A stretch of 64,000 bases of DNA from Sideroxydans sp. GTDB lineage: Bacteria > Pseudomonadota > Gammaproteobacteria > Burkholderiales > Gallionellaceae. The stretch covers positions 271,618-335,617 of the forward strand of contig JAQTUV010000005.1 of the NCBI GenBank assembly GCA_028707175.1, read 5' to 3'. Positions within the stretch are counted from its first letter, which is position 1; each line of letters begins with the position of its first letter. Positions 59,389 through 60,163 of the stretch are shown in pieces. The position numbers and the translations under genes were made by a program. The notes below the pieces were generated by a model. That model ran no database searches, was not told where the DNA came from, and worked only from the letters and a program-made list of their open reading frames with translations.

Positions 59389-60163
59389 GCCTGCTGTCGC
59401 AGGTCTTTACGCCATCACGCCAGACCTTGCTGACACCAACGAGTTGCTGCGGAAAGTTCGCCTTGCACTACAAGGCGGCGCACGCGTACTGCAATATCGC
59501 AACAAGATCGCCGATGCGGCACTTCAACTGCAGCAAGCGCAAGCGCTGCGCCAACTCACTCTAGAATTCGACACCACCTTCATCGTGAACGATGATGCGG
59601 CGCTTGCACGACAGGTCAATGCCGATGGCGTACATCTTGGCGGTGAGGACGGTAGCGTGGCTGCGGCACGCGCGCTACTCGGTGAATCCAAGCTCATCGG
59701 GGTATCTTGCTATAATCGCGCGCCCTTGGCGTTGGCGGCCGTGCAACAAGGGGCGGATTACGTGGCGTTCGGTGCGTTCTTCCCATCAAGCGTGAAGCCG
59801 GAAGCCGTGAGGGCGGATATAACTTTGTTACAAGAGGTGCGGCGGGCATTGAATGCAAATAGCACATTGGCACATAACCCGCTCCTTCCCCCATGCAGGG
59901 GGAAGGTTGGGATGGGGATAGAGTCGGGAAATATCCTAGCTTCTACCCCCACCCTAACCCTCCCCCTGCATGGGGGAGGGACTGAAGTGTCAAGGAAGTA
60001 CGTACCCATCGTGGCGATTGGCGGCATCACGCAACAGAATGGCGCGATGTTGATTGAGGCTGGCGCAGACTCACTCGCTGTCATCTCGGCACTGTGGGAT
60101 GCACCCGATAGCGAACAAGCAGCAAAAAAATTTTCAACCTTATTCAGTAGGACAAAGCAATGA
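59342..60163 (+). CDS. thiE: Thiamine-phosphate synthase (with REP-like in-frame insertion)
   Basis: 'LYAITPD', '[11 protein letters not shown]', '[22 protein letters not shown]', 'VAIGGI'; start may be GTG 59369. Confidence 0.92.
59884..59980. repeat. Pair of inverted REP-like palindromes inside thiE ORF
   Basis: CCTTCCCCC-atgca-GGGGGAAGG and CCCTCCCCC-tgcat-GGGGGAGGG, about 50 bp apart. Confidence 0.85.

Follow-up and report, generated by a model that had tools for sequence, protein, structure and literature searches.

An inverted pair of triplex-type palindromic units probably inserted in frame in thiE of a Sideroxydans genome

The thiE gene of a Sideroxydans sp. genome contains two palindromes within its reading frame, raising the questions of whether a repeat has entered a gene that still encodes a working enzyme, and to which class of repeats it belongs. 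The gene lies in a 64,000-nt stretch of contig JAQTUV010000005.1 (hereafter, the window). The nearest ThiE loci in named genomes are those of Sideroxydans and Gallionella, with which the host groups. From comparison with related proteins and a structural model, we consider it very probable that an inverted A+B triplex-type repeat was inserted in frame in thiE and is tolerated as a disordered loop of a working ThiE.

The inserted segment in thiE

The thiE gene (thiamine phosphate synthase; 59342–60163, plus strand) was identified from its open reading frame and from Pfam and NCBIfam matches, with homology from about position 59387. The frame runs from a GTG start at 59342 to a stop codon at 60161–60163, encodes 273 amino acids and is open throughout the palindromes. 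Both neighbors overlap thiE, i.e., thiD (58543–59388) and hemL (60160–61443), the start of the latter at 60160 being overlapped by the thiE stop codon. Pfam and NCBIfam matched ThiE in two stretches, one on either side of the insert.

We searched for ThiE in 60 relatives and in the genome itself, and 59 of the 61 genomes had a match. The same-genus matches break off at about residue 156 and restart at about residue 205, and a clean gap of 49 codons lies opposite the insert in all same-genus ThiE proteins aligned (29 of 29), which indicates that the thiE insertion is specific to this lineage. The sequence-only reading had proposed this comparison, with a domain conserved across the clade as the contrary outcome; the segment instead proved not to be such a domain. 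By the same alignment, the net in-frame insertion comprises 147 bp or 49 codons (59855–60001, plus strand), placed with an uncertainty of about one codon. A comparison of the insert region with 5.8 billion proteins returned the query alone, a result of little weight given that only five candidates had words in common with it.

The core of the insertion is an inverted pair of palindromes (59884–59980) located at 59884–59906 and 59958–59980, within an inverted repeat whose 40-nt arms (59883–59922 and 59942–59981) are 88% complementary. The pair accounts for about 98 of the 147 bp, thus the net insertion exceeds it, with flanks of about 28 bp on the left and 21 bp on the right (49 of 147 bases) unmatched by the repeat. 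The RNA of 59868–59995 has a minimum free energy of −86.4 kcal/mol (z = −9.2; none of 200 shuffles was as stable), the predicted hairpin takes in the entire thiE element, and copies elsewhere in the genome match the insert with E-values as low as 8.7e-30. Given the RNA-fold z-score and the E-values of these other copies, the inverted palindrome pair is far beyond chance. The proposal that two palindromes had been inserted in thiE with the reading frame preserved thus agrees with the coordinates, the inverted repeat and the open frame.

Architecture and class of the repeat family

BLAST with the thiE insert gave 79 matches in the genome, which group into about 48 distinct clusters, many of them paired. 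Matches were found in 17 of 41 genomes, and among relatives the distribution is patchy: some same-genus genomes have none, and others (e.g., G019 and G022) have many copies, the high counts being lower bounds. The aligned copies have both arms in common and little similarity beyond them. In thiE, unit A (59884–59918, plus strand) consists of the stem CCTTCCCCC, the loop ATGCA and GGGGGAAGG, followed by a TTG spacer and the third strand GGATGGGGA, and unit B (59946–59980, minus strand) of the stem CCCTCCCCC, the loop ATGCA and GGGGGAGGG, followed by a TTA spacer and the third strand GGGTGGGGG. They are separated by a 27-nt doublet center (59919–59945, plus strand) that varies among copies. The unit layouts of the family are CCCTCCCCC-loop-GGGGGAGGG-N3-GGGTGGGGG and CCTTCCCCC-loop-GGGGGAAGG-N3-GGATGGGGG.

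Among 49 strict pairs, from loci across the genus, identity is 95.5% over the compared parts of the arms and 49% in the 27-nt centers. The center is exactly 27 nt long in 37 of these pairs, and all 37 centers differ from one another. In 34 of the 49 pairs the loop of one arm is complementary to that of the other, as against 22.5 expected from shuffling, an excess to which shared ancestry could contribute. By eye the centers gave the impression of being self-complementary, which was dropped after a test of central-stem covariation in the doublet centers showed no clear excess over expectation.

The third strands follow the stems. GGGGGAAGG is paired with GGATGGGGG in 63 units (AAGG stems with GGAT), GGGGGAGGG with GGGTGGGGG or GGGAGGGGG in 73 units (AGGG stems with GGGT or GGGA), and GGGAGAGGG with GGGTGAGGG in 5 units, so that in each of about three variants the third strand is a mirror of its stem's G strand. 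A stem-matched third strand is what a triplex requires, but with about three variants this is supportive rather than decisive. Single units also occur three times at exactly 177-bp spacing at L039:2556–2933, apparently as an intergenic array.

This layout resembles the TM_ECO/PIT repeats of E. coli K-12, in which a motif of the form CCCTCNCCC N3-6 GGGNGAGGG N3 GGGNGAGGG, with one mismatch allowed, includes five inverted A+B pairs (Holder et al. 2015, PMC4666352). Common to both are the stem, the 3-nt spacer and the third G-rich strand (CCCTCNCCC / GGGNGAGGG), the inverted A+B pairs, a copy number that is very unequal among close relatives and the lack of a known transposase. Set against the TM_ECO pattern, unit B has a single third-strand mismatch, unit A deviates at one stem pair and more strongly in its third strand, and the unit in leuS (see below) has a second loop of 5 nt. 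The repeats here differ in their stem variants CCTTCCCCC and CCCTCCCCC, with the matching third strands GGATGGGGG and GGGTGGGGG, and in lying in frame within genes, whereas the E. coli K-12 copies are always intergenic (PMC4666352). The features expected of a MITE were missing, in that no target duplication was visible at thiE, mtnA or rlmN and a parent transposase was not found.

Predicted ThiE structure and alternative explanations

An AlphaFold2 model of ThiE, built on a 42-sequence alignment, shows a confident barrel (pLDDT ≥ 90 for 188 of 258 residues) and, among PDB entries, best matches the thiamin phosphate synthase structure 2tps. Insert residues 162–196, between helix 146–158 and strand 208–211, have pLDDT below 50; the barrel is predicted to be intact, with the insert joining helix 6 to strand 7 as a disordered loop. 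This modelling had been suggested by the sequence-only reading, whose claim that the insert precedes the conserved VAIGGI strand is supported. In TIM barrels, the active site and the helix-to-strand loops are at opposite faces. All 16 positions that are invariant across the 42 ThiE sequences are kept in the inserted protein, a ThiE homology search of the genome found no second thiE, and ThiC is intact. Judging from the model and these sequence features, the most economical reading would be that ThiE is functional and has gained a disordered loop.

Alternatively, the repeat may have inactivated a now dying thiE, the frame being open by chance. A 49-aa insert within a TIM barrel could be damaging and the inserted thiE is known from one genome only, but we regard this as quite improbable since the frame, the invariant residues and the C-terminal part are all intact, the gene is the sole thiE copy beside an intact thiC, and polA, rlmN, mtnA, leuS and other recognisable host genes are likewise read through (see below). 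The very stable mRNA hairpin could hinder translation, which counts against the coding-loop reading; extending over the entire element, it would also suit its removal at the RNA or ribosome level (by excision or translational bypass), leaving a mature ThiE without the loop. All clear genic copies are in frame, however, and the differences within the leuS element are whole codons. As the frame would be irrelevant if the element were skipped, its conservation speaks against skipping, and such removal appears extremely unlikely.

A further alternative concerns the family and its mover only, not the coding insertion, i.e., a true REP/BIME doublet moved by a RAYT transposase. The sequence-only reading had described the pair as REP and BIME-like, and many-copy short palindromes, often in inverted pairs, are indeed a REP/BIME trait; RAYT-like genes also occur in several relatives that are rich in repeat copies. 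However, the alignment of copies shows neither GTAG nor CGTC as a tetranucleotide at the palindrome foot, the 99.9%-complete genome has no Y1_Tnp or RAYT match, and no full RAYT match was found in G019 or G022 despite their many repeat copies. The RAYT genes of two relatives (L112:1343–2182 and L114:1532–2154) are bracketed by a different palindrome, GTGGGCAC..GTGCCCAC, which is a separate REP family of the genus. A RAYT was set aside as the mover because none is present in the genome and those of the two relatives are flanked by this other palindrome. In sequence, the units fit the intrastrand-triplex layout better than that of REP/BIME, and we consider a RAYT-moved REP doublet unlikely; of the earlier description, the inverted arrangement stands, and REP/BIME as a strict class label is not supported.

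Under the preferred explanation, an in-frame insertion tolerated as a loop, the element would be a non-autonomous, MITE-like inverted A+B pair of G/C-rich intrastrand-triplex (TM/PIT-type) units, inserted into thiE after the lineage split from its sequenced relatives. The gene may have survived because such an element is usually stop-free in one register per strand (e.g., PPPCRGR... on the other strand), because the total inserted length is divisible by three, and because the helix 6–strand 7 loop would lie on the barrel face opposite the active site. The ThiE produced would then contain a disordered loop of 49 residues and still work. We infer that the hairpin is translated through, that ThiE is active, that the pair moves as a unit and that selection removes out-of-frame insertions.

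In-frame copies in other genes and reuse of the same loops

Elsewhere in the genome, long open frames cross the repeat in MtnA, RlmN, PolA and an MFS transporter, with homology recognised on both sides, and in AddB; the MFS transporter has one unit rather than a pair. SagB-like and HsdM-like proteins probably also contain an in-frame repeat. About 8 of the 48 clusters are genic and all 8 are read through, the pattern that selection against frame-breaking insertions would leave. Two candidate coding copies in long open frames (L034 and L036) were excluded, as translation probably starts downstream of the repeat. In relatives, TilS, MetH and MutY likewise carry the repeat pair in frame, and the AddB and MFS sites are occupied in one relative each (L084 and L076, respectively). 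The relatives compared at mtnA and rlmN are without the pair of this genome. As expected of protein-coding palindromes, the copies are in frame and stop-free, lie in several unrelated genes and are absent from the orthologues of relatives; the suggestion that coding-tolerated insertions recur thus extends to several genes of this genome and of the genus.

A second coding insertion, already noticed from the sequence of the window, is located in leuS (leucyl-tRNA synthetase; 29813–32614, plus strand), where a TM_ECO-like unit, CCCTCGCCC-GCAGGC-GGGAGAGGG-ACCGA-GGGTGAGGG (30683–30720, plus strand), encodes a 14-residue peptide in frame. It had been assigned to a different palindrome subfamily from that in thiE, which holds for its stem but not for its triplex-type layout, which is the same as in the thiE units. 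The same loop is occupied in two relatives, by an insertion one codon shorter (L232) and by a larger, different inverted pair (L233), and the other sequences in the alignment have no insertion there. That the frame is kept through these changes argues that the inserted segment is translated. A REP-like hairpin at 51529–51552 was ruled out as a coding insertion; it is intergenic and belongs to a TM_ECO-type unit, CCCTCTCCC-GCAGGC-GGGAGAGGG-TTG-GGGTGAGGG (51529–51564), between two minus-strand genes. The window also contains tandem glycine riboswitch aptamers (Rfam RF00504; 40528–40705).

In MtnA, RlmN, PolA and LeuS, other species have different palindrome-encoded peptides in the same loop. The MtnA loop encodes TPSLTPALSPERRG in L224 and STLRQAQGE in L227, the RlmN loop of L216 has a longer insert with SVRPELVEG, and the PolA linker has TM_ECO-type units in L210, L212 and L213. 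The polA gene of this genome (L037) has a second in-frame palindromic insert, GTAGGTTTGGATTCATCC..GGGATGAATCCCGACCTAC (GTAGG...CCTAC), at about residues 405–430 in the 3'-5' exonuclease part, which is missing in the relatives compared. This reuse may mean that the loops are permissive, that insertion prefers certain sites or that one old insertion has turned over. More speculatively, and with considerable doubt, a limited set of surface loops in housekeeping enzymes of the genus could repeatedly take up palindromes from several unrelated families (GTAG-like and TTCGACAGGCTCAG-like repeats, triplex pairs and TM_ECO units), and the continual diversification of loops by selfish DNA could be a general way in which proteins evolve in a group not known as intracellular.

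In-frame palindromes are already known and not new in themselves; Rickettsia was once described as the only group to have them, and reports for GTAG/CGTC REPs followed later. As described in PMC10969869, the RPEs of Rickettsia are palindromic elements in frame in genes (Ogata 2000, 2002), and by this description the likeness consists in a palindromic element of about 150 bp whose open register is conserved and which occurs in frame in genes unrelated to one another. Relative to that description, the differences here are the triplex-type layout of each unit and a host lineage not known as intracellular. The GTAG/CGTC REPs are intragenic in several species, including in genes for DNA polymerase I and tRNA synthetases, and a REP lies at about the same site of recB in two Xanthomonas species (Di Nocera et al. 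2013, PMC3733652). These too are short, often dimeric palindromes that lie in frame in housekeeping genes, but the repeats here are another sequence family without a GTAG or CGTC tag, and different palindrome families repeatedly occupy the same loop. As far as the published RPE, REP and TM_ECO accounts were compared, what is new is the class of repeat, the group of hosts and the reuse of the same loop by different families. Repeats with a triplex motif, which in E. coli K-12 are strictly intergenic, thus seem to lengthen proteins in Gallionellaceae (Sideroxydans/Gallionella), and the four enzymes with differing elements in the same loop offer natural matched filled and empty orthologues for testing neutrality against enzyme change.

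In addB of this genome, the pair (L061:2649–2778) encodes ...LACPEPVEGGVES... and a further palindrome appears to be nested within it; the pair in addB of the relative L084 is without the nested palindrome.
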